A program made the translations under genes and the position numbers. A stretch of 64,000 nucleotides of DNA from Halosolutus gelatinilyticus (GTDB taxonomy: Archaea; Halobacteriota; Halobacteria; Halobacteriales; Natrialbaceae), in NCBI RefSeq assembly GCF_023028105.1, contig NZ_CP095491.1:2356001-2420000 (forward strand), in the 5' to 3' direction. The notes under the pieces are model-generated. The model was given only the letters and a program-made list of their open reading frames with translations, searched no databases and was not told the origin of the DNA. This document shows positions 41,996 to 58,548 of the stretch, in pieces (the stretch's first letter is position 1; every line of letters begins with the position of its first letter).

Positions 41996-44134
41996 TCAGT
42001 CGTCCGCCGCTGACCGTGAGTCGCCGGCGGGTTCGATGCCGACCTCGATCTCTGCGGCCGCGGCCTTGTACTCGGGGATCTTCGCCCGCTCGTCGAGCAC
42101 GTCGTTCGTGAGCCGGTTGGCCGACGCGGCGGCGAAGTGCGGCGTGGTCCAGACGACGCCCTCCTTGGTGTCCTCGGTGACTTGCGCCTCGACGGTGATC
42201 TCGCCGCGGCGGGACGTGAGGACCACCTTCTCGCCGTCTTCGATCCCGTAGCGCGCCGCGTCGTTCGGGTGCACGTCGACGAAGTTCTCCGGGGTCTGTC
42301 TATTGAGCGTCGGCGATCGGCGGCTCATCGTCCCCGTGTTGTAGTGCTCCTCGAGACGCGCGGTTGTGAGGATCAGCGGGTACTCGTCGTCGGGCGTCTC
42401 GTCCGGCGGAGTGTGGCGGACGCCCTCGATGTGGCCCAGGCCGCTTTCCGTGTCGAACTCCGCTTCGTAGAGGAACAGGTCCCCCTCGTCGCCGGGTTCG
42501 TAGCAGGGCCAGTGGACGCCCTCCTCGCCGAGGATGTCGTAGGTCATCCCGTGGTAGATCGGACAGACCTGCCGCAGTTCCTCGAAGACTTCTTCGGGGC
42601 CGTCGAAGTCGAACTCCTCGGCGCCGAAGAGCCGAGTCCCGATCTCCGAGAGGATCTCGAGGTCGTGTTTCGTATTCTCGTGGACCTTATCGACCCCGCG
42701 CATCCGCTGGACGCGTCGATCGGTGTTGGTGACGGTGCCGTCGCGCTCGGCCCAGGTCGTCGCCGGCAGGATCACGTCGGCGTACTTCGCGGTCTCGGTC
42801 ATGAAGATATCCTGGACTACCATGAACTCGAGGCGCTGGATCCGTTCGGCGACGCGGTTGGCGTCGGGTTCGGACATGACGGGGTTCTCGCCCATCACGT
42901 ACAGCCCGTGGACGGACTCGCCGAACTCGTGGGAGAGCTCGACGTTCGTGAGCCCCGGCTCGTCGGGAACGTCGAAGCCCCACTCCGCTTCGACGGCCGT
43001 GCGAGCATCGTCGTCGTCGACCAGCTGGTAGCCCGGCAGGACGTTCGGCATCGCGCCGACGTCGCAGGTTCCCTGGACGTTGTTCTGGCCGCGCAGCGGG
43101 TTGACGCCGGTGCCGGGACGGCCGAGATTCCCCGTGATCAGCGCCAGGTTGATCTCGTTTTGCACGTTGTCGACGCCGCAGGCGTGCTGGCTCATCCCCA
43201 TCCCGGTGAAGATGGCTGCGTTGTCCGCCGTCGCGTACTTTTCCGCGGCGAGTTCGATCTCCTCGAGATCGAGGCCGCACTCCTCCGCGGCGGCCTTCTT
43301 ATCGAAGTCCCGAAGCGTCCGTTTCAGGTGTTCGAACCCCTCAGTGCGCTCCTCGATGAACTCCTCGTCGATCCAGTCCGCGTCGGGGTTCTCCTCGTGT
43401 CTCTCGAGGATCGTCTTGATGACGACGTTCAGCAGCGGGATGTCGGTCCCCGGATTCAACTGGAGGTGCTGGTGCCGATCGGTGTCGTCGATCTGGAACG
43501 ATCGGGTCGTCTTGTTCGCGTGGGGGTCGACCTGGATGACGGTCGCGCCCTCGAGCACCGCCTGCCGGAAGTACTGGCTGTTGGCGATCGGGTGCTGTTC
43601 GCCCGGGTTCGCCCCCTGGATCCAGAAGACGTCGGCCTCCTCGCGGAGGTCCTGCATGCTGTTGGTCATCGCGCCCGCGCCCAGGCTCGTCCGCAGCGCC
43701 CAGACCGTCGAGGCGTGGCACATCCGCGTGCAGTTGTCGACGTTGTTGGTGCCGTACCGGCGGGCGAGTTTCTGGAGGAGGTAGTTCTCCTCGTTCATCG
43801 TCTTCGAGGAGCCGAAAAAGCCCGTCGCGTCGGGGCCGTACTCCTCGCGGATCCGCTCGAGTTCGCCGACGATGCGATCGTAGGCCTCTTCCCAGGTCGC
43901 CTCGCGGAACTCGCCGTCTTCCTTGATTAGGGGCTCGGTGAGGCGGTCTTCGTGGTCGACGACCTCCGTCGCCGCGCCGCCTTTGATGCAGATCCGCCCC
44001 TCGTTGACCGGCGCGTCGCCCCACGGCATAAACTGTACGTCGCCCGGTTCCTCGCCCTGCTGGATCTGGATGCCGCACCCGACCCCGCAGTACGGACAGA
44101 TCGTCTTGACCGGATCGCGCTTGTCACTGGACAT
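41996..44134 (-). CDS. formate dehydrogenase-like molybdopterin oxidoreductase
   Basis: A 712-residue single-subunit molybdopterin enzyme. The N-terminal [4Fe-4S] site is CPYCGVGCGI plus a fourth Cys in RICIKG. The active-site Cys lies in NCTRMCHAST, at the position held by Cys or SeCys in formate dehydrogenase alpha subunits. A molybdopterin dinucleotide-binding tail ends the protein (PLILTTARLEEHYNTGTMSR). No Tat signal, so cytoplasmic. It probably oxidises formate or reduces CO2. The usual diaphorase or FeS partner subunits are not adjacent, so its electron acceptor is unclear. Confidence 0.88.
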   Translation of the reverse strand: MSSDKRDPVKTICPYCGVGCGIQIQQGEEPGDVQFMPWGDAPVNEGRICIKGGAATEVVDHEDRLTEPLIKEDGEFREATWEEAYDRIVGELERIREEYGPDATGFFGSSKTMNEENYLLQKLARRYGTNNVDNCTRMCHASTVWALRTSLGAGAMTNSMQDLREEADVFWIQGANPGEQHPIANSQYFRQAVLEGATVIQVDPHANKTTRSFQIDDTDRHQHLQLNPGTDIPLLNVVIKTILERHEENPDADWIDEEFIEERTEGFEHLKRTLRDFDKKAAAEECGLDLEEIELAAEKYATADNAAIFTGMGMSQHACGVDNVQNEINLALITGNLGRPGTGVNPLRGQNNVQGTCDVGAMPNVLPGYQLVDDDDARTAVEAEWGFDVPDEPGLTNVELSHEFGESVHGLYVMGENPVMSEPDANRVAERIQRLEFMVVQDIFMTETAKYADVILPATTWAERDGTVTNTDRRVQRMRGVDKVHENTKHDLEILSEIGTRLFGAEEFDFDGPEEVFEELRQVCPIYHGMTYDILGEEGVHWPCYEPGDEGDLFLYEAEFDTESGLGHIEGVRHTPPDETPDDEYPLILTTARLEEHYNTGTMSRRSPTLNRQTPENFVDVHPNDAARYGIEDGEKVVLTSRRGEITVEAQVTEDTKEGVVWTTPHFAAASANRLTNDVLDERAKIPEYKAAAAEIEVGIEPAGDSRSAADD

Positions 44135-44337: not shown

Positions 44338-44895
44338 ATGGGGCTGACTCGATCGATCGTCACCGAAAAAGCCGCTGACTATCGAGCAGAAGAGCCGCTG
44401 TACCCCGTCGAGCAGGAGCAGATCGAAACCCTCCCGAAGGCCTTCGCGGCGGGCGAGTTCGGTTGGCGAGACGCCGAGTGGGTCGTCCAGTGGCACTACC
44501 GGCGGTTTCTCGGCGCGGTGCCGAACGACGAGCGTCGGGAACGCGAGAAGCGGTTCGGTCGGAACGACTTCACGGACGTCCGAGACGCGATCGTCGCGGT
44601 CGCGGGCGCGCCGGACCCGGCCGATCGGCTCGATCGGCTGACGGCTCTCGAGGGGGTCGACGTGCCGGTCGGCTCGGCGTTCCTGCAGTTTTCCGATCCC
44701 GAGGCGTGTCTCGCGGTCGGCGAGCGGGAGTGGTCGGCGCTTTGCGAGCACGGAGAACTGGCCGACCCCTATCCCGATCCGCCGTCGATCGCGGCCTACG
44801 AGTCGTACCTCGACGCCTGCCGATCGGCGTGCGGTCGCCTCGATTGCGACGCGTGGACGCTGTACCGGGCGCTCTGGCGGCTCTGGAAGGACTGA
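44338..44895 (+). CDS. conserved haloarchaeal hypothetical protein
   Basis: A 185-residue helical, Trp-rich protein (GEFGWRDAEWVVQWHYRRFL, FTDVRDAIVAVAGAPDPADR, CLAVGEREWSALCEHGELAD, WTLYRALWRLWKD at the end). No signal, membrane segment or metal site is evident, though it has paired Cys near the C-terminus. Function unknown. The 200 bases between it and the formate dehydrogenase start hold promoters but no gene. Confidence 0.7.
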   Translation: MGLTRSIVTEKAADYRAEEPLYPVEQEQIETLPKAFAAGEFGWRDAEWVVQWHYRRFLGAVPNDERREREKRFGRNDFTDVRDAIVAVAGAPDPADRLDRLTALEGVDVPVGSAFLQFSDPEACLAVGEREWSALCEHGELADPYPDPPSIAAYESYLDACRSACGRLDCDAWTLYRALWRLWKD

Positions 44896-45784: not shown

Positions 45785-47422
45785 ATGATCGAGAATAAGG
45801 AGACGTTCATCTATTCGGAGCAGGATCGTACCGGCCGGCCGTTCCTCACGGACGAGAGAGCGCTCGATGAAATCCGGGCGCGAATTTGCGCCGGCGTTCG
45901 ATCGCTCGTCGCCGACGCGAACGCGGACGGCGTCGTCGTGGCGATGAGCGGCGGGATCGACTCGACCGTGACGGCGGCGCTGGCGGTCGAGGCGCTCGGC
46001 GTCGATCGCGTGCTCGGCCTCGGTCTCCCGTGTCACAAGGCCGAGCAGGCCGACGTGAGCGACGCTCGAACGATCGCCGCGGGATTGGGGATCGAGTTCG
46101 AAGAACTGCAGTTACGCCCGGTTTTCGAGGCGTTTCGGCGGACGATCGTCGACGAACTCGGGACCGAGGCGTCCGGGAACGAACGAGTGCGATCGGCGGG
46201 GGCGCCGATCGAGGTCGGGAACGCGGTCGCGCGATTGCGAATGTGCTGTGCGTACTACGCGGCGAACAGCCGATCCCGACTGGTACTCGGAACTGCGAAC
46301 CGATCGGAGCTGTTGCTCGGCTACTTCACGAAGTACGGGGACGGCGCCACCGACGCGTATCCGATCGGCGACCTGTACAAGGCCGAGGTTCGCGCGCTCG
46401 CCAACCACCTCGGGATTCCCCGTCGGATCGTTCACAAGGAGCCGACCGCGGGATTCTGGGCCGACCAGACCGACGCCGACGAACTGGGGACGGCGGAGGG
46501 GATCTTCGCCGGCATCGGAAACGCCGGCGCGGGGCTGGGCGCGTACTTCACTTTGCCGCGGATCTTCGGCGAGGGGTACGTCGGGCCCCTGTTCGACGCG
46601 AACTGGCGAGCGGCGTTCTTCTACACGGGCGTCCTCGCGATCGTCCTCGGCGTCGTGTACGTCGTCTTCGGCGACGCCGCAAAGAGCGCCGAAAAGCGGG
46701 AGTCGACGAAAGCCGGCGTGAGCTTCGAACGGTGGTGTTACATCGCCACCCGTTACGGCGCGGTCGTGCTCTCGGTGGCCTACGTCATGTCGTTCGGCCT
46801 CGAACTCGCGATGAACGGCTGGCTGGGAACCTACTATCGCGAGGCGTTCGGCCAGGGCGACATCGTCGTCGCGGCCACGTTCGCCGCGACGTTCTCCGTC
46901 GCGGCCGGATTCCTCCGTCCGATCGGCGGCTACGTCAGCGATCTCGTCGCGCGGAAGGAGCGGAACCTCCTCCCGTGGTTCGAGGGCCGCTATCGCGAGC
47001 AGTGGACCTTCGCGACGCTCGTGTTCGTCGTGCTCGCCATGCTCGGGATGACGGCCGCCGGGATGACCGGCAACGTCTACGCCGCCGTCGTCGCCGGGTT
47101 CCTCGTCGGCACGGGGTGTGCATTCGCCGAGGGCGCGATCTTCGCCCAGGTTCCCGCGATGTTCCCGAACGATTCGGGCGCGGTCGCCGGCGTCGTCGGC
47201 GGCATCGGCTCTTCCGGCGGGTCGATCTACCCGCTGCTCTTCGCCGCACCGTTTCTGCCGACCCTCCACGCGGGATACGCGGTCGTCGCGGTCACGATGA
47301 TCCCGATCCTGGCGGTGAGCGCCTGGGTGTTCCAACCCGACGTGGCCGAGGAGGCCACCACCGGCGGATGGCTCGTCGACGAACCGACGGGTCAGACGGC
47401 GACCGCCGTCGCGGACGATTAG
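45785..47422 (+). CDS. NAD synthetase-NarK nitrate transporter fusion
   Basis: A 545-residue single frame. Residues 1-~235 are NH3-dependent NAD+ synthetase (SGGIDSTVTAALA P-loop, LVLGTANRSELLLGYFTKYGDGATD, LYKAEVRALA). Residues ~236-545 are the C-terminal part of a NarK-type MFS nitrate/nitrite transporter (TAEGIFAGIGNAGAGLGAYF nitrate signature, FLRPIGGYVSDLVARKE, SGAVAGVVGGIGSSGGSIYP) with ~8 helices. The last ~30-40 residues of NadE and the first ~4 helices of NarK are missing. The join lies at DADELG/TAEGIF (~46490). This looks like a deletion that fused two neighbours. Activity of either half is doubtful. Confidence 0.85.
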   Translation: MIENKETFIYSEQDRTGRPFLTDERALDEIRARICAGVRSLVADANADGVVVAMSGGIDSTVTAALAVEALGVDRVLGLGLPCHKAEQADVSDARTIAAGLGIEFEELQLRPVFEAFRRTIVDELGTEASGNERVRSAGAPIEVGNAVARLRMCCAYYAANSRSRLVLGTANRSELLLGYFTKYGDGATDAYPIGDLYKAEVRALANHLGIPRRIVHKEPTAGFWADQTDADELGTAEGIFAGIGNAGAGLGAYFTLPRIFGEGYVGPLFDANWRAAFFYTGVLAIVLGVVYVVFGDAAKSAEKRESTKAGVSFERWCYIATRYGAVVLSVAYVMSFGLELAMNGWLGTYYREAFGQGDIVVAATFAATFSVAAGFLRPIGGYVSDLVARKERNLLPWFEGRYREQWTFATLVFVVLAMLGMTAAGMTGNVYAAVVAGFLVGTGCAFAEGAIFAQVPAMFPNDSGAVAGVVGGIGSSGGSIYPLLFAAPFLPTLHAGYAVVAVTMIPILAVSAWVFQPDVAEEATTGGWLVDEPTGQTATAVADD

Positions 47423-47565: not shown

Positions 47566-47574
47566 GTTATATGG
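47566..47574 (+). promoter_or_regulatory. TATA element for the exchanger gene
   Basis: GTTATATGG centres ~27 bases before the ATG at 47598, as expected for a leaderless archaeal transcript. It decides the start among three in-frame ATGs (47571, 47586, 47598). Confidence 0.45.
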
Positions 47575-47597
47575 TGGCATTCAACATGGTATGGCCC

Positions 47598-48701
47598 ATG
47601 ATCGAGGACCTCGTCGAGGGTGCTATCGAGGGACAGGGGACGTGGCTCGCGTACGCCGTTCTCGTCGGCGGTGCGATCGTGCTCACCTACAGCGTCGAGA
47701 AACTAATCAGTTATCTTACCAGAACGGCGATCGGTCTCGGCGTCTCGATCTTCGCGCTCGCGCTCGTCCTGACGGGGTTCGAGTTCGACGACACCGCCGT
47801 CGCGCTGGTGTTCGGGGCGGGCGGACTCGAAGGGGTCGCGCTCGGGACCGCGCTCGGGACCGCACTCGCGATCACCGGCATCCCCCTGGCCGTCGCGGCG
47901 ATCGTCCGGCCGTTTCCCGTCGACGTTCCGCGCGATTATCTGCTGCTGTTCGTGCTCTCCCCGTTCGTCCTCGTCCCCTTCGTCCTCGCTGGGACGCTCA
48001 CCGCCGTCCACGGTGCCCTCCTCGTCGGAATGTTCTTCGTTCTCCTCGGCTACATCGTCGTCCGGGAGGTCCAGCGTGACGTCCCCGTGTTCCGGGATTC
48101 GGAGATCGCGGAGCGGATCGAGGCCGACGGGGGCGTCCCGCTCGAACGCCTGAGCCTCGCGGACGTCGATCGCGCCACGGTCCTCGAGGAGATCCCCGAG
48201 GATCGATTCGCCACGGAGTTCCGGTACGAGGGATTCTTCTGGCTCGGCCTGTCGCTGCTCGCGCTCGTCGGCGTCGTCCTGGGATCGACGCTGCTCGAGG
48301 TCGGGTCGGAGGTGATCGTCGAGTCCTGGGGGATCGAGGAGACGGTCTTCGGGGCGACCGTGCTCACGCTGTTTCTGACGTTCGAGAACCTCCTGTTGAC
48401 GATCGAACCCGTTCGAAGGGGGGTGCCGGAGATCGGCATCGGGCACGTCATCGGGAGCGTCATCTTCTCGGTGACGGCCAACGTGGGCGTGATCGCGTTC
48501 GTCGCCGACGTGACGATCCCGCGGGCCGTTCTCGCCTTCCACCTCCCCGCGGTGATCGTCCTGACCGCCGTCGCCGCGTACGCCATCTCCACCGGCCGCG
48601 TTCGACGCCGACACGGCTACGTCCTCGCCGGCCTGTACGTCGCCTATTGGCTTCTCGCGCTCCTCGTCTTCGGCGGCGTCCCGATTCCGGGTCCGCTCTG
48701 A
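47598..48701 (+). CDS. CaCA-type sodium/calcium exchanger family protein 1
   Basis: A 367-residue protein with about 10 helices in two inverted halves separated by a hydrophilic loop (DSEIAERIEADGGVPLERLS). Repeats: GAGGLEGVALGTALGTALAI in the first half and PEIGIGHVIGSVIFSVTANV in the second, at the places of the alpha motifs. The usual acidic residues of alpha-1 are changed, so cation choice is uncertain. A paralogue follows 57 bases downstream. Confidence 0.82.
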   Translation: MIEDLVEGAIEGQGTWLAYAVLVGGAIVLTYSVEKLISYLTRTAIGLGVSIFALALVLTGFEFDDTAVALVFGAGGLEGVALGTALGTALAITGIPLAVAAIVRPFPVDVPRDYLLLFVLSPFVLVPFVLAGTLTAVHGALLVGMFFVLLGYIVVREVQRDVPVFRDSEIAERIEADGGVPLERLSLADVDRATVLEEIPEDRFATEFRYEGFFWLGLSLLALVGVVLGSTLLEVGSEVIVESWGIEETVFGATVLTLFLTFENLLLTIEPVRRGVPEIGIGHVIGSVIFSVTANVGVIAFVADVTIPRAVLAFHLPAVIVLTAVAAYAISTGRVRRRHGYVLAGLYVAYWLLALLVFGGVPIPGPL

Positions 48702-48758
48702 TTGCGGACCGCGAACCGCGCCCGGAACTAAGTGCGCAGCCGTGGTGGCAGCGCTCGT

Positions 48759-49910
48759 ATGGCGCTCCCGGCTCCGGAACTCGTCGGCCTCGCCGTCCTG
48801 TTCCTGGCAGGCGTCTTGCTGGTGATCTGGTGCGTCGAGATCTTCATCGAGGCGGTCGCCCAGAGCGCCGTCTCGCTCGGCATCTCGGGGTTCTTTCTCG
48901 CCGTGATTCTCGCCGGCGTCGATCTCGAGAACGCGATTCTGGGCGTCACGGCGGCGTTCGTCGACCTTCCGGACCTCGCGCTCGGGACGGTGTTCGGCGA
49001 GTCGCTGTTCGTCCTCGCCGTCGCGGTCGGCATCGCGGGTCTGTTCGTCCCGTTTCGGATGGACATCCCCCGGATCTACCTGCTCCTGCTCGTCCTCGTA
49101 CCGCTGCCCGCGTTCGCGCTCGCCCTCGACGGGACGCTCGACTGGACCGACGGCGCGATCCTCACGGTCCTGTTCGTCCCCCTGCTCGCCGGCATCTTCT
49201 GGCGCGAGCGCCGATCGGAGACGACGTACCTCCTCTCCGGCGAGGTCGAGGAGGCCGTCGACCTCGACGCGGCGTCGACCGACGAATCCGAGGGGCCGAT
49301 CGAGAACGGCGGGGCGACTCCGGCGATCGATCCGAGCGAATGCGCCGGGTCTGGCGATGATGAAATTCCGGGGTCGACCGCTACGGACGATGCTCGGAAC
49401 GCCGACGACCGCCCGCTAGCGGATCTCGATCTGGACCTCGACGAGTTCGTCCCGGAACTCGAGGATCGAAGCGGGTACTTCTGTCTCGCCGTCGCGATGC
49501 TCGCGATCGTCGGGATGACGATCGGCTCGGGGATCACGGTGGTGAGCGCCGAAGGAATCTTCGTCGCGCTCGGCGTCTCGGGGCTCGCGTTCGGCGCGAC
49601 GGTCCTTTCGTTCATCGCCTCGATCGAAGAGCTGGCGCTCACCGTCGAACCGGTCCGACAGGACCGACCCCACCTCGCCGTCGGCAACGTCGTCGGCAGC
49701 ACGGCGTTCTACGTGACCGCGAACGTAGGGATCATCGCCCTGCTCAGCCCGATCGATACCGCCGGCGCGGTGATGACGGTCCACTGGCCGTTTCTCGCCG
49801 CCTGCCTACTCGTCGTCGGCGTCATGCTCGCCCGCGGTCGCGTCACGCGGTTCGGCGGGGCGATCCTCCTCGCGCTGTACGCAGGGTACTGGGTGGTCAA
49901 CTACGTCTAG
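48759..49910 (+). CDS. CaCA-type sodium/calcium exchanger family protein 2
   Basis: A 383-residue paralogue of the previous gene, with DLPDLALGTVFGESLFVLAV and RPHLAVGNVVGSTAFYVTAN alpha motifs. An ~85-residue acidic cytoplasmic loop in the middle (VDLDAASTDESEGPIENGGA...) could sense metal. The pair may form a heterodimer. Substrate unknown; Ca2+ is the usual family ion. The operon converges on the cupredoxin gene. Confidence 0.82.
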   Translation: MALPAPELVGLAVLFLAGVLLVIWCVEIFIEAVAQSAVSLGISGFFLAVILAGVDLENAILGVTAAFVDLPDLALGTVFGESLFVLAVAVGIAGLFVPFRMDIPRIYLLLLVLVPLPAFALALDGTLDWTDGAILTVLFVPLLAGIFWRERRSETTYLLSGEVEEAVDLDAASTDESEGPIENGGATPAIDPSECAGSGDDEIPGSTATDDARNADDRPLADLDLDLDEFVPELEDRSGYFCLAVAMLAIVGMTIGSGITVVSAEGIFVALGVSGLAFGATVLSFIASIEELALTVEPVRQDRPHLAVGNVVGSTAFYVTANVGIIALLSPIDTAGAVMTVHWPFLAACLLVVGVMLARGRVTRFGGAILLALYAGYWVVNYV

Positions 49911-49964: not shown

Positions 49965-51467
49965 TTAGCCGTCCTCGGTTTCGTTGCCCTCCTGGGCCGT
50001 CTCGTTTCCATCCTGATCCGTTTCGTTGCCGGCCGTCTCGTCGGCGGTATCCGGCATTCCGAGGTCGGTGTTATTCGCCTCGCCGTCGGCGTCGTCTCCC
50101 TCGCCGGCATCGTCCCCCCCGTCGTCGGCCGCCTCACTGATGGTGACCTCGCCGACCGCATTGAGCTGCGACTGGTCGAGATAGACACCCATGTTCTCGT
50201 TGGCGACGAACTCGACGGTCTGGGTCTCGTCCGCCTCGCTCGTGAAGTTCGATCGGACGTACGTGTTCCACTCGTTGGTATCGCCGTCGCTGGCGATCAC
50301 GAAGTTGTGCCCGGGGAGCGGCTCGAAGTACCGGTTCTCTTCCTCGGGCTGGTGTCGACCGATCGTGTTCTCCCACTCGACCGCGTAGCTCTCGCCCGCT
50401 TGGAGTTCGAGCGTCGGGTTCTCCTCGTCGGCGATGGCGTCTGGTTCCACGCCGATCCACTGTCCCTCTTCGAGGCTGAGCGAGAAGGTTTCGGTCGGCT
50501 CGCCCGGTTCGATCGCCGGCAGCGTGACGGTGAGTTCCTCGTCGCTGCCGTCGATCGTCACCTCCTCCCGGACGCGCTCGTGGCCGTACGTCCAGACTTC
50601 GACGGTGTAGTCGCCGTTCTCGAGCATGTCGAAGCGGGCGACGGCTGGTGGCTCCTCAGCCGCTGCCCCCTGGTCCTGTGCGCCGCCGCCGGCCGTTTCG
50701 TTTCCGCCGCCAGCTGTCTCGTTCCCGCCGCCAGCTGTCTCGTTCCCGCCGCCAGCTGTCTCGTTCCCGCCGCCAGCTGTCTCGTTCCCGCCGGCCGTTT
50801 CGTTCCCGCCGGCCGTTTCGTTCCCGCCGGCCGTTTCATTTCCATCGCCGCCGGGTTCCAATTCGCCGGTACCCCCTTCCGTCGGATCGGGTCGGGCGGC
50901 GATGTCGGAGAACGCGTGCGTGTCGTCGACGAACACCTCCGCTCCGAGGGGATTGCCCTCCTCGTCCTCGACCCGCACCCGGAGTTCGTGGACGTCCCCC
51001 GGATCGATCAGTTCTATCGGTCCGCGCATCTGGACCGGATGGGGCATGCAGTAGTATTGGGCTTCGTCCCCCTCCGGCGTGTACGTGAACGAGAGTGATT
51101 CACCCTGTTCGTTTATGAAGTCCGACGCTTCGATGGCCTCTCCCTCTTGGTTCGCGACGGTGAAGTTGTGATTCGCCCCGTCGCCGTTCGTCCAGATGAT
51201 CTCGTTCTCGACGCCTTCGACCAGGCGAAGCGTCGGGTTCGAGACCCCGTCGATCTCCGCCGGGGCGACGCCGACCCAGCCGCCGACGATGCCGAGCAGC
51301 GAGATCGTTCGACCCTCGACGTTGTTTTGGGCCGCCGGGAGGTCGAAATCGATTACGTCGCGATAGGCGCCCGCGGTGCCGGTCGCCGCCGTTCCGGCGA
51401 CAGCGGCCGTCCCCTTCAGCACGCCGCGGCGCGAGACGTCTTCACGTGAGCGTTGTTCGTTCGTCAT
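49965..51467 (-). CDS. Tat-exported cupredoxin with glycosylatable linker
   Basis: A 500-residue secreted protein. Tat signal (VSRRGVLKGTAAVAGTAATG, Arg-Arg at 13-14). Domain 1 (~35-155) is a type 1 copper cupredoxin with His100 (GANHNFTVAN), Cys140, His143 and Met147 (YYCMPHPVQM). A beta domain follows, then an (GGNETAG)8 linker (~205-255) with eight N-E-T sequons. Domain 2 (~330-455) repeats the cupredoxin fold (GQWIGVEPDAI, PGHNFVIASDGD) but lacks the Cys-His-Met loop. The C-terminus is Asp/Glu/NET-rich. Third gene of the operon with the PQQ enzyme, 36 bases after it; probable electron acceptor. Confidence 0.88.
   Translation of the reverse strand: MTNEQRSREDVSRRGVLKGTAAVAGTAATGTAGAYRDVIDFDLPAAQNNVEGRTISLLGIVGGWVGVAPAEIDGVSNPTLRLVEGVENEIIWTNGDGANHNFTVANQEGEAIEASDFINEQGESLSFTYTPEGDEAQYYCMPHPVQMRGPIELIDPGDVHELRVRVEDEEGNPLGAEVFVDDTHAFSDIAARPDPTEGGTGELEPGGDGNETAGGNETAGGNETAGGNETAGGGNETAGGGNETAGGGNETAGGGNETAGGGAQDQGAAAEEPPAVARFDMLENGDYTVEVWTYGHERVREEVTIDGSDEELTVTLPAIEPGEPTETFSLSLEEGQWIGVEPDAIADEENPTLELQAGESYAVEWENTIGRHQPEEENRYFEPLPGHNFVIASDGDTNEWNTYVRSNFTSEADETQTVEFVANENMGVYLDQSQLNAVGEVTISEAADDGGDDAGEGDDADGEANNTDLGMPDTADETAGNETDQDGNETAQEGNETEDG
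50689..50846 (-). repeat. tandem repeat encoding the NETAGG linker
   Basis: Four 21-base units (GGNETAG) and three 18-base units (GNETAG), nearly identical at the DNA level, lie within the cupredoxin gene. Recent unequal crossing-over is likely, so copy number may vary among strains. Confidence 0.85.
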
Positions 51468-51503
51468 TGGTGTATCGTGTGTGGTAAGGTGGTGCGTTGG
51501 TTG

Positions 51504-53213
51504 TCAGGCATCCATCGAGAACACGGCGAGCGTGTCGCCGCGGGTTCCCTGGCGGAGCCAGCCGCTGCCGCCGACCTGAACGGCGACGTACTGCTTCTCC
51601 TCGCCGGAGTCGTACCAGCTCATCGGCGAGGCGCTGATCGGCACGTCGAAGTCATACTCCCAGAGACGGGCGCCGTTCTCGCCGTTGTAGGCGACGAGGT
51701 TGCCGTTCTGGGTGCCGTTGAAGACGAGCCCCGTGGCGGTCGACATCGAGCCGCCCCACATGTAGAACTCGTCCTCGCTCCGGATCCAGTCGGTCCAGAT
51801 CCGCTCGCCCGTCGACGGATCGACCGCGGCGAAGGCGGTGATGTTTCCGTTCCACTCGTCGGGCATCTCCGAGGCCGGATCGTCGAGTCCGCCGCCCCAG
51901 TAGGGGTTCCCTTCGCTGTACTCCTCGTAGCGCCAGTAGAGATCCTGCGGGAAGTTCTGGTGGACGACGTTCACATACCCCGTCTCGGGGTTGTACGACG
52001 GCGGCTGCCAGTCGTTGCCGCCCGGTGCGCCCGGGACGAACGGGAGCCGCTCGTCCTCGCTGATGTGGGGGATCATCTCCCACATATTGATGTGCTGGCA
52101 GATCTCCTCGCTGCGCTCGTGGAGCTGTCCCGACTCGGCGTCCATCATGTACACCCAGCCGGTCTTGTCCGAGCCCACGACCATATTCATGGAGCCGTTC
52201 TCCGTTTCCACGTCGCGCAGCAACACCCGCGGCGCGACCGCGTCGTAGTCCCAGACGTCCTGCGGGCTGCTCTGGAAGCCCCACAGGTGCTCGCCGCTCT
52301 CCATGTCCAGTGCGATCGTCCCGCAGGTCGGGAAGTTCGGACCCGGTCGCACGGTCCCGTCGAAGTCCGGTCCGGGGTTGGCAACCGCCGTGTAGAGGAC
52401 GCCCTCCTCCTCGTCGATCGTCGGGGTCATCCAGGTCGTCCCGCAGCCGTGCTCGCGGCTCTCGCCGATCCACTCGTTCTCCGGGAGCATGTCGGTCTGC
52501 CACTGGATGTCGCCGCTCTCCGCGTCGATCGCGGCCTCGAATCCCAGGACGCCGTACTCGCCGCCAGCGCTGCCGGTGTAGATCGTCCCGTCGTGGATCA
52601 CGGGCGCCCACGTCGCGGAGTATCCGACCTCGTGGTCCGCGGTGCTGGTGTACCACTCCTCCTCGCCGGTGTACCGGTTCAGCGCGACGACGCCCGAGTC
52701 GAGCGTCGTCATGTACACCTTGTCGCCCCAGACGGCTGCGCCGCGGTTGTTGTCGTCGCAGCAGAGTTCGACCCCGATCGGGACCGCGTAGGTGTAGCTC
52801 CACAGCACCTCTCCTTCGCGGGGATCGATCGCCTTCATGTGGTTGGGCCCGTTGGTCTGGTACATCACCGGCGGATCGCCCGGGACCACGATCGGCGTCC
52901 CCTCCATGCTCGACCCCGTGCCGACGGACATCTCGTACTCGAGTTCGAGGTCGGAGACGTTGTCGGGCGTGATGGTGTCGGCCGGCGTCGCCCGGTGCTG
53001 TTCGTAGTTCCCGCCGTACATCAACCAGGACTCGGGATCGTCCCCCGTGTTGCTCAGCATCTCCTGGTCGACGTCGCCCTCAGGAATGCGATCGGTGTCG
53101 TGCTGTTCCGTCACGGAGTTCTCCGGGCCCCCTTCCAGCGTGTAGCCGTCGTCGGTCTGTACCAGTTCGATGTCTCGTGCGGCCTGGACGGCCCTGTCGT
53201 TGCGAAGTGCCAT
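51504..53213 (-). CDS. PQQ-dependent alcohol dehydrogenase, XoxF/ExaF-like (lanthanide-type motif)
   Basis: A 569-residue eight-bladed propeller quinoprotein that should oxidise a primary alcohol to an aldehyde. Visible: SWLMYGGNYEQHRATPADTI start blade; adjacent Cys151-Cys152 (VELCCDDNNRGAAV), which form the ring disulfide over PQQ; Glu219 (SAGGEYGV) and Asn279 (VANPGPD) metal ligands; Trp261 in GTTWMTP, which stacks on PQQ; and Asp322-Tyr-Asp324 (DVWDYDAVAP). Asp322 is the catalytic base. The second Asp marks lanthanide-type enzymes; calcium-type MxaF has Ala there. No Sec or Tat signal is seen. Second gene of a three-gene operon. Confidence 0.93.
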   Translation of the reverse strand: MALRNDRAVQAARDIELVQTDDGYTLEGGPENSVTEQHDTDRIPEGDVDQEMLSNTGDDPESWLMYGGNYEQHRATPADTITPDNVSDLELEYEMSVGTGSSMEGTPIVVPGDPPVMYQTNGPNHMKAIDPREGEVLWSYTYAVPIGVELCCDDNNRGAAVWGDKVYMTTLDSGVVALNRYTGEEEWYTSTADHEVGYSATWAPVIHDGTIYTGSAGGEYGVLGFEAAIDAESGDIQWQTDMLPENEWIGESREHGCGTTWMTPTIDEEEGVLYTAVANPGPDFDGTVRPGPNFPTCGTIALDMESGEHLWGFQSSPQDVWDYDAVAPRVLLRDVETENGSMNMVVGSDKTGWVYMMDAESGQLHERSEEICQHINMWEMIPHISEDERLPFVPGAPGGNDWQPPSYNPETGYVNVVHQNFPQDLYWRYEEYSEGNPYWGGGLDDPASEMPDEWNGNITAFAAVDPSTGERIWTDWIRSEDEFYMWGGSMSTATGLVFNGTQNGNLVAYNGENGARLWEYDFDVPISASPMSWYDSGEEKQYVAVQVGGSGWLRQGTRGDTLAVFSMDA

Positions 53214-53219
53214 GTCTGA

Positions 53220-54122
53220 TCACCTCAACTCGCTCGGTGCGCGCATGTCGTCCGTGATGTAGAAGACGTCGTGCAGGAGGTCCTCCTGGGCGACGATCTG
53301 TACCGCCGTGCCCGCCGTGAGCGCGGCGGTCAACTGCTCGTCGGTGAACGCCTCGTCCGTCGCGAGGTCGTGGACGGCCGTCGCCGAGGCGAACAGCCCG
53401 CCCAGCATCGCCTTCACGTAGCGGATAGCGTCGTCGAGGATCTCGTCCGTGATCAACACCTCGTACTGCCAGAGGTGCCTGTCGAGCCCCTGGATCCACA
53501 GCAGCGTACCGCCCATCGCGCGCCGATGGAGCGGCGGGACGTTCGACGTGTCGAACTCCACGCCCTCGGGGATCTGGTTCGACGGCACCCACCGCGCGAG
53601 ACGCTCGGTGTTGTTCGCGACGGCGCTCAGCAGGGCCAGCTTCTCCGACTCGTCGAAGCCGACGTCGTCGAGCGCGGACGACAGCGGCTCCGCGAGGACC
53701 AGTTCTCGCGCCGTGCTCTCGATGTGCTCCGCGGTGAACCGGGGAAGGTTCTCGTCGAGGCTCTCGAAGAGCCCGACCTCGAGCAGGTGGTCGTACAGGT
53801 GCCAGCCCGGCTCCGCGACCTCGGTATACGGCCCCTCCGGTCCGTCAGGGATGCCCGCATCGCGAACGTCCGGTAGGCGATCGATCTCTGTCCGGAGATC
53901 CGCCAGCACCTCCCCGAGCAACACCGGATCGAGCCGCTCCCCGAGATCGGTTCGGATCGCCTCGCCTCTCGAGCCGAACGTCGACTCGGCCTGCGGTTCG
54001 ACCTGCCCCGCGAGCAGGTCCCACGTTACCTCCCCGTCCTTCGGCGCGTCGACGCCGAGCGTCGTCGCGAGAGTACGGCGGTCCGCGATCGTCGTGTCGG
54101 TTATCGTAGACGATTGGTTCAT
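53220..54122 (-). CDS. unrecognised 300-residue partner of the PQQ dehydrogenase
   Basis: A largely helical, acidic protein starting MNQSSTITDTTIADRRTLAT. Notable stretches: GWHLYDHLLEVGLFESLDEN, EHIESTARELVLAEPLSSAL, RAMGGTLLWIQGLDRHLWQY and ITDEILDDAIRYVKAMLGGL. Only 6 bases separate it from the dehydrogenase start, so co-translation is likely. No signal peptide, lipobox, heme C (CxxCH) or membrane segment. It does not look like XoxG, XoxJ or any PQQ biosynthesis protein I know. It may be a chaperone, an assembly factor or a structural subunit; function unknown. Confidence 0.85.
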   Translation of the reverse strand: MNQSSTITDTTIADRRTLATTLGVDAPKDGEVTWDLLAGQVEPQAESTFGSRGEAIRTDLGERLDPVLLGEVLADLRTEIDRLPDVRDAGIPDGPEGPYTEVAEPGWHLYDHLLEVGLFESLDENLPRFTAEHIESTARELVLAEPLSSALDDVGFDESEKLALLSAVANNTERLARWVPSNQIPEGVEFDTSNVPPLHRRAMGGTLLWIQGLDRHLWQYEVLITDEILDDAIRYVKAMLGGLFASATAVHDLATDEAFTDEQLTAALTAGTAVQIVAQEDLLHDVFYITDDMRAPSELR

Positions 54123-54392
54123 GCTACCACTACACATATGACGGCACTACCAGTTTTGTTAATACTTATCAATGGTATCCGGATTCACATATAATGTCTA
54201 AACAACCATGTCAACAACAGAAATGAACGTCTACGCGAACACTATCTTTCGTAGGGGAACGTGAATTCTCGAGGTGCCGGCCCGGTTCGCTTCGCAGCGC
54301 GGCCGATGCCGTCGTCCATTCGGATTCGACGCCGTCTCCCGCCGTAGTGATACCATTATATTCGGCGGCGGTGACCGGCCACACGACACGCG
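54123..54392. promoter_or_regulatory. divergent promoter region between the PQQ operon and its regulator
   Basis: 270 AT-rich bases between head-to-head genes. Toward the regulator, TTATATT at 54356-54362 lies ~30 bases before the ATG at 54393. Toward the PQQ operon, TAAGTATTAAC (minus strand, 54158-54168) lies ~36-46 bases before its ATG. No perfect operator palindrome was found by eye. Confidence 0.45.
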
Positions 54393-55694
54393 ATGCGTCC
54401 GCGTTCGTTCTGGGTACTCGACGACGCAGACGAGGCGGTCATCGACAGGGTCGCGGCCGGCCTCGGCCGAACTCCGGCGCGGGTTCTCGCGTACCTCATC
54501 CTGCGAACCGAGCGGGTCGACGATCCCGCGACGAGTGTGCACCTCCAGGTCGGCACGCGGCTCAACCGGACGGCGATCGCCGAGGCCACGACGCGCCTCG
54601 CGGACCGCGACCTGGCGGCTCGATCGGCCCTTCGGAAGGGCGATCCCGGCCGGCCGCAGACGGCCTGGCGACCGATCGCCGATCGGGAGCCGACGATCGC
54701 CCGAACCTACGAAACGCACGCGGAGGCGTTGCTCGATCGCGCATGCAACTGTCACGGGATTTCGGAGACGGGATCCGTGGCATCCGAGTCGGAACCGTTC
54801 GATGCCGCAGCGGATCTTTCGATCGCACTCAACTGGCGCCCGAACGCCCTCCACGCGCCGATCCACGCCGCCATCGAGACGGACTGGTACGACGAGTTCG
54901 GCGTCGGCGTCGACCTCGATCACTGCGACGGGTCCCGACGCGCGCTGGATCGCGTCGCGTCCGGCGCTGCGGAGCTCGCCGTCGCCGGAGCCGCGACGGT
55001 CGTCCGCGCACGCGAAGCGGGCGAACCGATCATCCCGATCGCGCTATGCTACCAGCGGGCGATGACCGTGCTCTACACCGTCAGGGACGTGTTCGGGGAG
55101 CCCCTCGGGAGCGTCGACCAGCTCGAGGGACGGCGCGTCGGAATGCCGCCGGCGACCGAGACGCGGCTGCTCGGGCGATTGTTCCTCTCGCAGACCGCGT
55201 TCGCGGACGAGATCGACATCGTCGACACGAACGGCGAAGAGCGGGACCACCTCCGCCGGCGGGTCGCGGACGTCGTGACCGGCTCGTTCGCGGACCCGCT
55301 CGAACTCGAACGGGACGGGCTGACGGTCGACGTCCTCCGGCTGGCCGATCACTTTCCGTTCTACGGTCCGACGATCGTCGTTCGCGAGGCGACGCTCGCC
55401 GATCGACCGGCCCGGATTCGGGACTTTCTGGCGGGGACGACCGCTGGCTGGGCCGAGGCGCGCTGCGACCCTCGACCGGCGGCCGAACGAATCGCCGCGA
55501 GAAGCGGCGACTCGCCGGTGATGATCGAGCGGACGTTCGAGCGAGCGGCGACGCGGTTCGGCGAGAGCGACGCCGTCCGCGAACGCGGCTGGGGCTGGCA
55601 ACGGGCGGAGATGTGGGAGCGGTTGCGGACGGCGCTCGACCAGGCCGACCTCCTCCGCGATTCGGCGTCGTCGAACTCGAACGCGGGGGTCTAA
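54393..55694 (+). CDS. winged-helix regulator fused to a THI5/NMT1-like binding domain
   Basis: A 433-residue one-component regulator. Residues ~1-95 are a winged helix (AVIDRVAAGLGRTPARVLAY, LNRTAIAEATTRLADRDLAA). A short Cys/His linker (CNCHG) follows. Residues ~145-430 are a solute-binding fold (DLSIALNWRPNALHAPIHAA, YTVRDVFGEPLGSVDQLEGR, FLAGTTAGWAEARCDPRPAA) closely related to the protein at 40246. It lacks any signal peptide, so the binding domain senses a cytoplasmic ligand. Its divergent position upstream of the PQQ operon suggests it controls that operon. Ligand unknown. Confidence 0.85.
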   Translation: MRPRSFWVLDDADEAVIDRVAAGLGRTPARVLAYLILRTERVDDPATSVHLQVGTRLNRTAIAEATTRLADRDLAARSALRKGDPGRPQTAWRPIADREPTIARTYETHAEALLDRACNCHGISETGSVASESEPFDAAADLSIALNWRPNALHAPIHAAIETDWYDEFGVGVDLDHCDGSRRALDRVASGAAELAVAGAATVVRAREAGEPIIPIALCYQRAMTVLYTVRDVFGEPLGSVDQLEGRRVGMPPATETRLLGRLFLSQTAFADEIDIVDTNGEERDHLRRRVADVVTGSFADPLELERDGLTVDVLRLADHFPFYGPTIVVREATLADRPARIRDFLAGTTAGWAEARCDPRPAAERIAARSGDSPVMIERTFERAATRFGESDAVRERGWGWQRAEMWERLRTALDQADLLRDSASSNSNAGV

Positions 55695-56613: not shown

Positions 56614-58548
56614 TCAGTCGTCCGACGGAGCTGGCGCGCCGCCCGTGCTGCTGACGCCGGTACCGGGACCGACGTCGATCTCGAGATCGTCGAGTTTCTC
56701 GTCGGGGACGACGCCGTCGACCCAGCCGCGGTAGTCGTAGTACTCGTCTTTCATCTCCTCGAGTTCGCAGTACTCGCCCTCGCTCGCGCCCTGACCGGGG
56801 ATGCCGTCCTCGAGGAACCGGGCCGGCAGCGAGTCGTCGGCGCCGTCGAAGCCGACGAGATTGTTGTAGTACCGCTCTAAGTTGTAGACTCGCTCGCCGG
56901 CCTCCATCAGTTCGTCCTCGTCGACGTCCATGCCGGTCATGCCGTTGTACTGGAGGACGTACTCCTCGATGCCTTCCGCGAACGCGTTGAACTTGCAGAT
57001 GTCGAACGAGTCGCTGATTGCGTGGAGGTTCTGGAACTCCGCGGTGAGTTCGCCCTTGCCCTCCCACTCGTAGGGATCGACCTTCTCGGGAATGCCGAGG
57101 ATCTCCGCGGCGGGCGTGTAGGCCCGCAGGTGGCAGGCGCCGCGGTTCGAGGTGGCGTAGGCGATCCCCATCCCCTTCATGCAGCGGGGGTCGTAGGCGG
57201 GGATCGTCTGGCCCTTGACCGCGAGCGAGTTGTCGGCGGCGCCTTTCTTCTCGGCCACGCGGCTCGCACCCTCGGCGAGCAGGTCCGCGAGGTCGTCCTC
57301 GCGGTGGGCGATCCGCTCGATCAGGTCGATCATCGTCTCGGAGTCGCCCCACTCGAGGTCGTCGCCGACGTCCTCGAGTTTGCCCTCCTCGGTCATCTCC
57401 ATCGCCATCGCCATCATATTGCCCGTCTCGATCGTGTCCAGCCCCATGTCGTTACAGCGGTCGATCATGAGGGCGATGTCGTCGCGCTCGGTGTGCCCGG
57501 AGTTGGGGCCGAGGGCGAACGCCGACTCGTACTCGTAGGACTCCATGCGGACGTTCATCTCCTCGCCCTTGTGCATCGCCTGCACCTCGACTTCCTTCTT
57601 GCAGGCGACCGGACAGGAGTGACACGTCGGCTCGTCGACGAGGATGTTCTCGCGAACGTTCTCGCCCGAGATCTTTTCCGAGTCGAACCCCTCCTCGGCC
57701 CAGCCGTCGTCGACGGCGTCCCGCGTCGAGGTGTACGTCGCGTTCTTCGTCGGGAGGCCGGACATCTCCTCGGTGATGTTCATCAGGACGTTCGTCCCGT
57801 ACATCGAGAGGCCGCCCTCGTTGGGCGCGGTGACCTCCGACTCCTGGATGGCCTGCATCGCCTGCTGGTGGCCCTCCATGAACGTTTCCTTGTCCGCGGG
57901 TTTGGGCATCTTCGTGTTCGACTTGACGACGATCGCCTTGAGGTTCTTCGACCCCATCACGCAGCCCGTCCCGCCGCGACCCGAGGCGCGATCGTCCTCG
58001 TTCATGATGCAGGCGTAGCGCACCTGGTTCTCGCCGCCCGGACCGATGCCCATGATCGAGAGGTTCTTGCCGTAGGACCCTTCGACCTCCTCTTCGAGCG
58101 TGTCGCGGGTCTCGTGGAACCCGTTGCCCCAGAGGTGGGAGGCGTCGCGGAGTTCGACGTCACCGTCCTCGACGACGGCGTAGACCGGTTCGTCTGCCTG
58201 GCCCTCGAACAGCAGGCCGTCGAGGCCGGCCCACTTCAGCCGAGCGCCGGACCAGCCGCCGTGGTGACTGTCGGTGACGGTGCCGGTCAGCGGCGATTTA
58301 GTGCAGACGGCGATCCGGCCGCTCATGGTCACTTGCGTCCCCGACAGCGGCCCGTTCATGAACGCCAGCAGGTTCTCCGGACCGAGCGGATCGACGTCCG
58401 GCCCCTGGTCGAAGACGTACTTTACCCCCAGGCCGCGCGCACCGATGTACTTCTTCGCGTCCTCGTCGTCGATCGACTCGTACGCGACGTTCCCGTCCGA
58501 GAGGTCGATGCGAGCGACCCTGTCCTGGAAACCGCCGAGTTCAGTCAT
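56614..58548 (-). CDS. aldehyde:ferredoxin oxidoreductase (tungstopterin)
   Basis: A 644-residue enzyme oxidising aldehydes to carboxylic acids with ferredoxin as acceptor. It has N-terminal GGFQDRVARIDLSDG, the pterin-binding regions KYIGARGLGVKYVFDQGP and RGGTGCVMGSKNLKAIV, and the [4Fe-4S] ligands CHSCPVACKK plus a Cys in FDICKFNAF. ANRGACHLRAY-like sequence (ATSNRGACHLRAYTPA) is also typical. No signal peptide: cytoplasmic. Together with the alcohol dehydrogenase at 51504 it could complete oxidation of an alcohol; a link inferred from proximity only. Confidence 0.93.
   Translation of the reverse strand: MTELGGFQDRVARIDLSDGNVAYESIDDEDAKKYIGARGLGVKYVFDQGPDVDPLGPENLLAFMNGPLSGTQVTMSGRIAVCTKSPLTGTVTDSHHGGWSGARLKWAGLDGLLFEGQADEPVYAVVEDGDVELRDASHLWGNGFHETRDTLEEEVEGSYGKNLSIMGIGPGGENQVRYACIMNEDDRASGRGGTGCVMGSKNLKAIVVKSNTKMPKPADKETFMEGHQQAMQAIQESEVTAPNEGGLSMYGTNVLMNITEEMSGLPTKNATYTSTRDAVDDGWAEEGFDSEKISGENVRENILVDEPTCHSCPVACKKEVEVQAMHKGEEMNVRMESYEYESAFALGPNSGHTERDDIALMIDRCNDMGLDTIETGNMMAMAMEMTEEGKLEDVGDDLEWGDSETMIDLIERIAHREDDLADLLAEGASRVAEKKGAADNSLAVKGQTIPAYDPRCMKGMGIAYATSNRGACHLRAYTPAAEILGIPEKVDPYEWEGKGELTAEFQNLHAISDSFDICKFNAFAEGIEEYVLQYNGMTGMDVDEDELMEAGERVYNLERYYNNLVGFDGADDSLPARFLEDGIPGQGASEGEYCELEEMKDEYYDYRGWVDGVVPDEKLDDLEIDVGPGTGVSSTGGAPAPSDD

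Follow-up and report, generated by a model that had tools for sequence, protein, structure and literature searches.

The 64,000-nucleotide window analyzed here (Halosolutus gelatinilyticus, contig NZ_CP095491.1, positions 2,356,001 to 2,420,000) contains an operon centered on a pyrroloquinoline quinone (PQQ) alcohol dehydrogenase, which we call ADH. Its gene follows that of a second protein, U305, on the same strand after 6 bp, and is itself followed after 36 bp by a cupredoxin gene; a fourth gene is divergent to U305 (Table 1). An earlier note on this DNA had proposed all four open reading frames (ORFs), and all four are present.

We compared this locus with a set of relatives comprising 69 haloarchaeal ADH loci and the genomes that carry them, in which neighboring genes were counted per locus. 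The ADH alignment and tree contain 69 haloarchaeal, 10 bacterial, and 7 reference proteins. Fisher and binomial figures were computed without correction for kinship and serve as indications only. Searches of the open-access literature on haloarchaea in connection with lanthanides, PQQ, or methanol dehydrogenase turned up no account of this family.

Table 1. Genes of the operon and its surroundings in the window
Feature	Position	Strand	Details
U305	ORF 53220-54137, start likely 54122	-	305 aa; all-helical ADH partner; start most likely at the conserved M6
ADH	51504-53213	-	569 aa; PF01011 8.6e-49; D322-Y323-D324; no signal peptide
Cupredoxin	49965-51467	-	two domains; PF00127 1.5e-7, TAT_signal 2.2e-4
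Putative divergent regulator	54393-55694	+	NMT1/THI5-like ligand-binding domain, PF09084 2.3e-28
Aldehyde:ferredoxin oxidoreductase (AOR family)	56614-58548	-	PF01314 1.4e-121
Sodium/calcium exchanger 1	47571-48701	+	PF01699 1.9e-21
Sodium/calcium exchanger 2	48732-49910	+	PF01699 3.3e-32
Formate dehydrogenase alpha subunit	41999-44134	-	TIGR01591 734 bits, cut-off 666

The dehydrogenase, its metal, and its cofactor

The 569-residue protein is a genuine eight-bladed PQQ-type alcohol dehydrogenase, and both its propeller and its contact residues place it in the PQQ methanol/ethanol dehydrogenase family (TIGR03075/PF01011). TIGR03075 is its best NCBIfam model at 350 bits, yet this lies below the model's cut-off of 480 bits; the second-best model, “acido-empty-quinoprotein group A,” reaches 260 bits. 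Residues C151-C152, E219, W261, N279, and D322-Y323-D324 sit exactly where the earlier note had placed them, and they align with the PQQ and metal residues of solved XoxF and PedH. D322, D324, N279, W261, R157, and K350 are invariant in all 69 haloarchaeal ADHs, E219 is kept in 67, and the vicinal pair C151-C152 in 59. Judged from this alignment, the conservation of the active site is far beyond chance. Ten diverged ADHs (L059-L062, L064-L068, and L160) have lost the vicinal Cys pair and kept both Asp. In the predicted ADH model, the active-site loops have a predicted local distance difference test (pLDDT) score below 50, so confidence in these loops is low.

PedH and XoxF are the nearest solved structures, both by sequence and by the fold of the predicted model. 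PedH/ExaF (6zcv/6zcw) is the best match (1e-59 by sequence and 6.6e-39 for the model in Foldseek) and shares the vicinal Cys and the Glu/Asn/Asp/Asp set. The haloarchaeal enzymes differ from PedH in several respects: identity is about 26% on the structural alignment, Lys350 stands where PedH has Arg, there is no signal peptide, U305 is present, and a cupredoxin or ferredoxin replaces the cytochrome c-550 PedF. XoxF (6dam, 4mae, 6oc5) has the same fold, with an identical D-Y-D in 6dam and 4mae, but the haloarchaeal ADHs fall outside its clade, and no XoxG/PedF-type cytochrome c or XoxJ was found in the analyzed ADH neighborhoods, to which this search was confined. Thaumarchaeal (HMT) PQQ dehydrogenases are likewise archaeal, and some carry the DYD motif (PMC7300363). 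Unlike the enzymes described here, they lack Cys-Cys and 15 of 21 have signal peptides; their genomes are said to encode PQQ synthase, and the accessible part of that source describes no U305 partner (PMC7300363).

A single branch (Shimodaira-Hasegawa-like approximate likelihood ratio test, SH-aLRT, 99) sets the 69 haloarchaeal ADHs together, apart from XoxF, MxaF, PedH, and ExaA, in a quick, midpoint-rooted tree with only the 10 bacterial and 7 reference rows for comparison. In the same tree, they are found inside neither the XoxF nor the ExaF-PedH clade. Because they form this separate clade, the ADH is lanthanide-type by site, but neither XoxF nor ExaF. The phylogenetic check that had been proposed for the earlier reading also gave a clear outcome, as ADH does not fall among non-enzymatic propellers.

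D324, the second Asp of the lanthanide-type (XoxF/ExaF/PedH) signature, is present in 69 of 69 sequences, and the residues E219/N279/D322/D324 suggest a metal site of the lanthanide type. The D-x-D site on which lanthanide dependence had been proposed is genuine, but the proposal is weakened, as membrane glucose dehydrogenases that have been characterized as Ca/Mg-type also carry D-x-D (PMC11996626). For this reason, the case for lanthanide use is good but short of proof. An ADH that works with Ca2+ (or Mg2+) instead is a real, if lesser, possibility, and in addition to the glucose dehydrogenases it can draw on the position of the haloarchaeal branch outside the proven lanthanide clades and on the Na+/Ca2+ exchangers that lie within 8 kb of ADH in 25 of 69 loci (the whole genome has about five such genes), which would then reflect calcium handling. 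Conversely, the top sequence and fold matches of ADH are lanthanide enzymes, position 324 of the same alignment is Ala or Ser in the Ca-type MxaF and ExaA, and carriers of the Na/Ca type might also transport Ln3+. The exchangers could thus serve the handling of either Ca2+ or Ln3+.

The source of the cofactor is a separate question. No pqqC match above noise was obtained in any of the 69 ADH-bearing haloarchaeal genomes, while the positive controls, two bacterial megaplasmids, scored 352 and 338 bits in the same search. Matches to pqqB and pqqE were far below cut-off. The earlier note had reported no pqq genes in the window; standard pqqC, pqqB, and pqqE went undetected in the whole genome as well, in a search that did not extend to pqqA and pqqD. 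Two candidates were rejected: a PqqB match that reached 114 bits in a single relative (G191) is a metallo-beta-lactamase that stands alone next to a BamB-like propeller, with no pqq cluster, and, as a possible further ADH, a second PQQ-domain locus next to an AOR in the same genome (C1:1845368) encodes a BamB-like propeller instead. Since pqqC went undetected in all 69 genomes, PQQ would have to be imported, synthesized in some other way, or substituted by a different quinone; uptake is more probable than synthesis through the known pathway.

The same genomic result could be explained if ADH were an “empty” quinoprotein without PQQ, as has been proposed for acidobacterial homologues in genomes without PQQ synthesis, and the second rank of “acido-empty-quinoprotein group A” points the same way. 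We consider this improbable, as R157, S199/T201, W261, N279, D322, K350, and mostly C151-C152 are kept, none of which a cofactor-free propeller needs.

U305 and the export route

The gene pairing of U305 and ADH was assessed in 41 loci, namely that of the window plus 40 others retrieved through their ADH only, which together hold 44 ADH copies. U305 lies directly upstream on the same strand of 43 of these copies, down to ADHs of about 37% identity; the lone exception, in L086, is an additional ADH copy whose genome holds another U305. When 393 genomes of the phylum were searched with a profile, U305 turned up in seven, all of them ADH-positive with equal copy numbers, and in none of the other 386. 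By this pattern of co-occurrence, U305 is an obligate, dedicated partner of ADH, and a physical complex of the two may be inferred. The earlier note had listed a 300-residue unknown protein at this position; the protein is there, and its role as the most conserved partner had been missed. Those annotated relatives of U305 that we saw are labeled “hypothetical protein.”

The AlphaFold model of U305 is all-helical (pLDDT 87.8) and has no fold match in the PDB (best E 0.79). Conserved Cys residues are lacking in the protein, and H117 is its one invariant His. Two roles were considered and discarded: an electron carrier, given the lack of conserved Cys, and a PqqC-like protein (PqqC is also all-helical), for which there is neither a sequence nor a fold match.

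A signal peptide or hydrophobic N-terminus was found on none of the 69 haloarchaeal ADHs. In the window, neither the ADH nor the U305 ORF can be extended upstream, which leaves no room for an ADH signal. Most of the sampled bacterial ADH relatives do have a hydrophobic N-terminus, and a few of the bacterial ORFs have doubtful starts. Without a signal peptide, how ADH reaches an external cupredoxin needs explanation.

The distribution of twin-arginine translocation (Tat) signals on U305 offers one. A clear Tat signal (e.g. DRRNFLKVLGVTGSVGAAS) occurs on U305 in 15 of 69 relatives, every one on the outer branches of the tree, and Pfam TAT_signal matches 9 of 25 U305 members. The hitchhiker arrangement, in which the partner carries a Tat signal and the catalytic subunit has none, is found in these 15 relatives and not in the window's copy, where the signal is degenerate (ADRRTLATTLGVDAPKDG). 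It is likewise degenerate in the rest of the window's clade and in its sister clade, and two losses on the tree suffice to account for this. Because the ADHs have no signal of their own while outer-branch U305s have a clear one, we read U305 as probably an ancestral Tat hitchhiker escort, from which the U305 of the window's clade would be derived. There is precedent for a signal-less redox subunit exported through a Tat-bearing partner, namely FAD (flavin adenine dinucleotide) glucose dehydrogenase, which is exported by its hitchhiker gamma subunit (PMC6719666), and the three-component PaoABC (PMC4273604). These are flavin or molybdenum enzymes, not quinoproteins, and U305 matches no solved structure; among known Tat small-subunit families, such as FAD-SLDH and the gluconate dehydrogenase gamma subunit, only FAD-SLDH gave a match, at E 0.09 and for one of 25 members.

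The sole Tat signal of the operon in the window's clade is that of the cupredoxin (SRRGVLKGTAAVAG in the window). A Tat-bearing cupredoxin lies co-directional and at most 100 bp downstream in 21 of the 23 cupredoxin loci with a Tat-less U305, against one of the 15 loci with a Tat-bearing U305 (P = 1.7e-7 without correction for kinship; L100, counted among the 21, was assumed from its genus mates). This pattern, for which PaoABC is a parallel, suggests that all members of the complex are exported on the cupredoxin's signal in the window's clade.

U305 might instead be an assembly or activation factor, either for cofactor or metal insertion, with a XoxJ-like function, or as a maturation chaperone; its Tat signal would then merely co-locate it with an ADH that leaves by another route. 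Loci that have lost the signal still keep U305, whose function must then go beyond signal carrying, and its lone invariant His without conserved Cys makes it an unlikely electron carrier, both of which agree with such a role. We nevertheless regard it as doubtful, as all haloarchaeal ADH copies lack a signal of their own and the all-helical model does not have a XoxJ/periplasmic-binding fold.

Electron acceptor and cellular compartment

The adjacent Tat cupredoxin of the earlier note has, besides its signal, a type-1 copper site in domain 1 (H100, C140, H143, and M147 by motif scan); the same scan found no such ligand set in the second domain. The linker between the domains (aa 210-258) is a near-perfect repeat with eight NET N-glycosylation sequons, and the length of the cupredoxin varies among relatives. 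Within the 18-row clade of the window, a co-directional cupredoxin gene lies immediately downstream of ADH in the window itself and in 16 of the 17 remaining members, which supports the earlier proposal of blue copper, not cytochrome c, as acceptor. From this gene order, an exported blue-copper protein is the likely electron acceptor in the window's clade.

Elsewhere in the family, the acceptor appears to have changed. In the sister clade (31 rows), U305 and ADH are both without a Tat signal, the cupredoxin is absent, and a halobacterial ferredoxin, Fer (NF041393, 195 bits, cut-off 150), lies within 6 kb in most loci. Across all 69 loci, a cupredoxin is found near ADH in about 34 (including two manual additions, L100 and L104, of which only the latter was checked) and Fer in 25; both together are found in none. 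Gene content thus indicates that a cytoplasmic [2Fe-2S] ferredoxin takes the place of the cupredoxin in the sister clade. In this ferredoxin clade (L080, L106, L111-L118, L151, and others), a CDC48-family AAA ATPase and a protein of about 180 aa (c11) are conserved around U305-ADH.

On balance, we lean towards reading the window's operon as a quinoprotein dehydrogenase of two components, U305 and ADH, with a lanthanide-type site, a history of Tat escort, and the cupredoxin as acceptor. Ancestrally, U305 with its twin-arginine signal would have bound ADH, and Tat would have exported the folded enzyme. In the window's clade, U305 would have kept its role as partner after losing a working signal, with the Tat signal now on the cupredoxin encoded 36 bp downstream, and U305, ADH, and cupredoxin may be exported together as a ternary hitchhiker complex. 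Electrons would then pass from the alcohol to PQQ, on to blue copper, and into the respiratory chain.

Several observations weigh against this reading. There are only two Tat losses on the tree and hence few independent points for the cupredoxin correlation. Neither fold nor Pfam matches connect U305 with known hitchhiker subunits, and its contact with ADH is deduced from gene pairing alone. The D-x-D motif is not strictly lanthanide-specific (PMC11996626). Finally, U305 and ADH both lack a Tat signal in the window's clade, such that export would depend on the cupredoxin taking them along, and the enzyme may be cytoplasmic there.

The last of these is the main rival to export. U305-ADH would now stay inside the cell as in the sister clade, oxidize an alcohol or an imported substrate, and reduce a cytoplasmic carrier, with the cupredoxin either a leftover or serving another enzyme. 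The sister clade itself, with Fer and without Tat or cupredoxin, favors this, as do the cytoplasmic AOR and formate dehydrogenase nearby and, in several ferredoxin-clade loci, a gene divergent to U305 that encodes the lipoprotein substrate-binding protein of an NMT1-type ATP-binding cassette (ABC) importer. We nonetheless think it unlikely for the window, since its clade retains a Tat cupredoxin with an intact type-1 copper site in tight operonic linkage.

Both exported and cytoplasmic forms can be placed in one tentative scenario, in which a lanthanide-type quinoprotein lineage moved from the cell surface to the cytoplasm. It would have lost Tat and exchanged blue copper for ferredoxin, with the window's clade half-way (the signal being on the cupredoxin), and the NMT1-type ABC importer may bring in substrate or PQQ. 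If true, this would mean an intracellular PQQ/lanthanide enzyme in an organism that lacks the known PQQ pathway. To our knowledge, known lanthanide-dependent enzymes are bacterial and PQQ-dependent, and they operate outside the cytoplasm with cytochrome c.

The lanthanide/blue-copper reading of the earlier note is plausible, now extended by a new partner, a changed export route, and a switch of acceptor. The haloarchaeal branch would extend lanthanide biology to halophilic archaea and raises the question of the origin of their PQQ. It would also provide a tree-resolved case of a redox enzyme changing its export route, its acceptor, and perhaps its compartment, and U305 gives a function-linked name to a family of hypothetical proteins.

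Genes around the operon

The exchangers, AOR, and formate dehydrogenase recur near ADH in several clades. AOR lies within 8 kb in 16 of 69 loci (four AOR in the genome) and formate dehydrogenase in 15 (two above cut-off in the genome). The window's clade also has a recurrent zinc formaldehyde-dehydrogenase-like gene, which scores 347 bits against a cut-off of 637. AOR is possibly the next step, from aldehyde to acid, and a route from alcohol through aldehyde to acid, possibly of C1 compounds, would fit these neighbors. The exchangers found beside ADHs of different lineages (window 47571-49910, + strand; L160 12133-13209) are 39% identical.

The earlier note had described the divergent gene as a one-component regulator. 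The gene and its NMT1/THI5-like domain are present; the N-terminal 130 or so residues look winged-helix-like by eye only, with no Pfam match. The divergent position of this NMT1-domain gene is conserved in the window's clade, where the protein is intracellular.

Two further observations concern the wider window. A gene of about 200 aa (c22; L070 13422-14057; window 44338-44895, + strand), with no Pfam match, accompanies formate dehydrogenase in the loci examined. At 45785-47422 (+ strand), a single ORF combines most of an NAD synthase domain (aa 32-236) with the latter part of a major facilitator superfamily (MFS) transporter (aa 224-483, profile 109-347), which is either a fusion by deletion or recombination or an assembly error.

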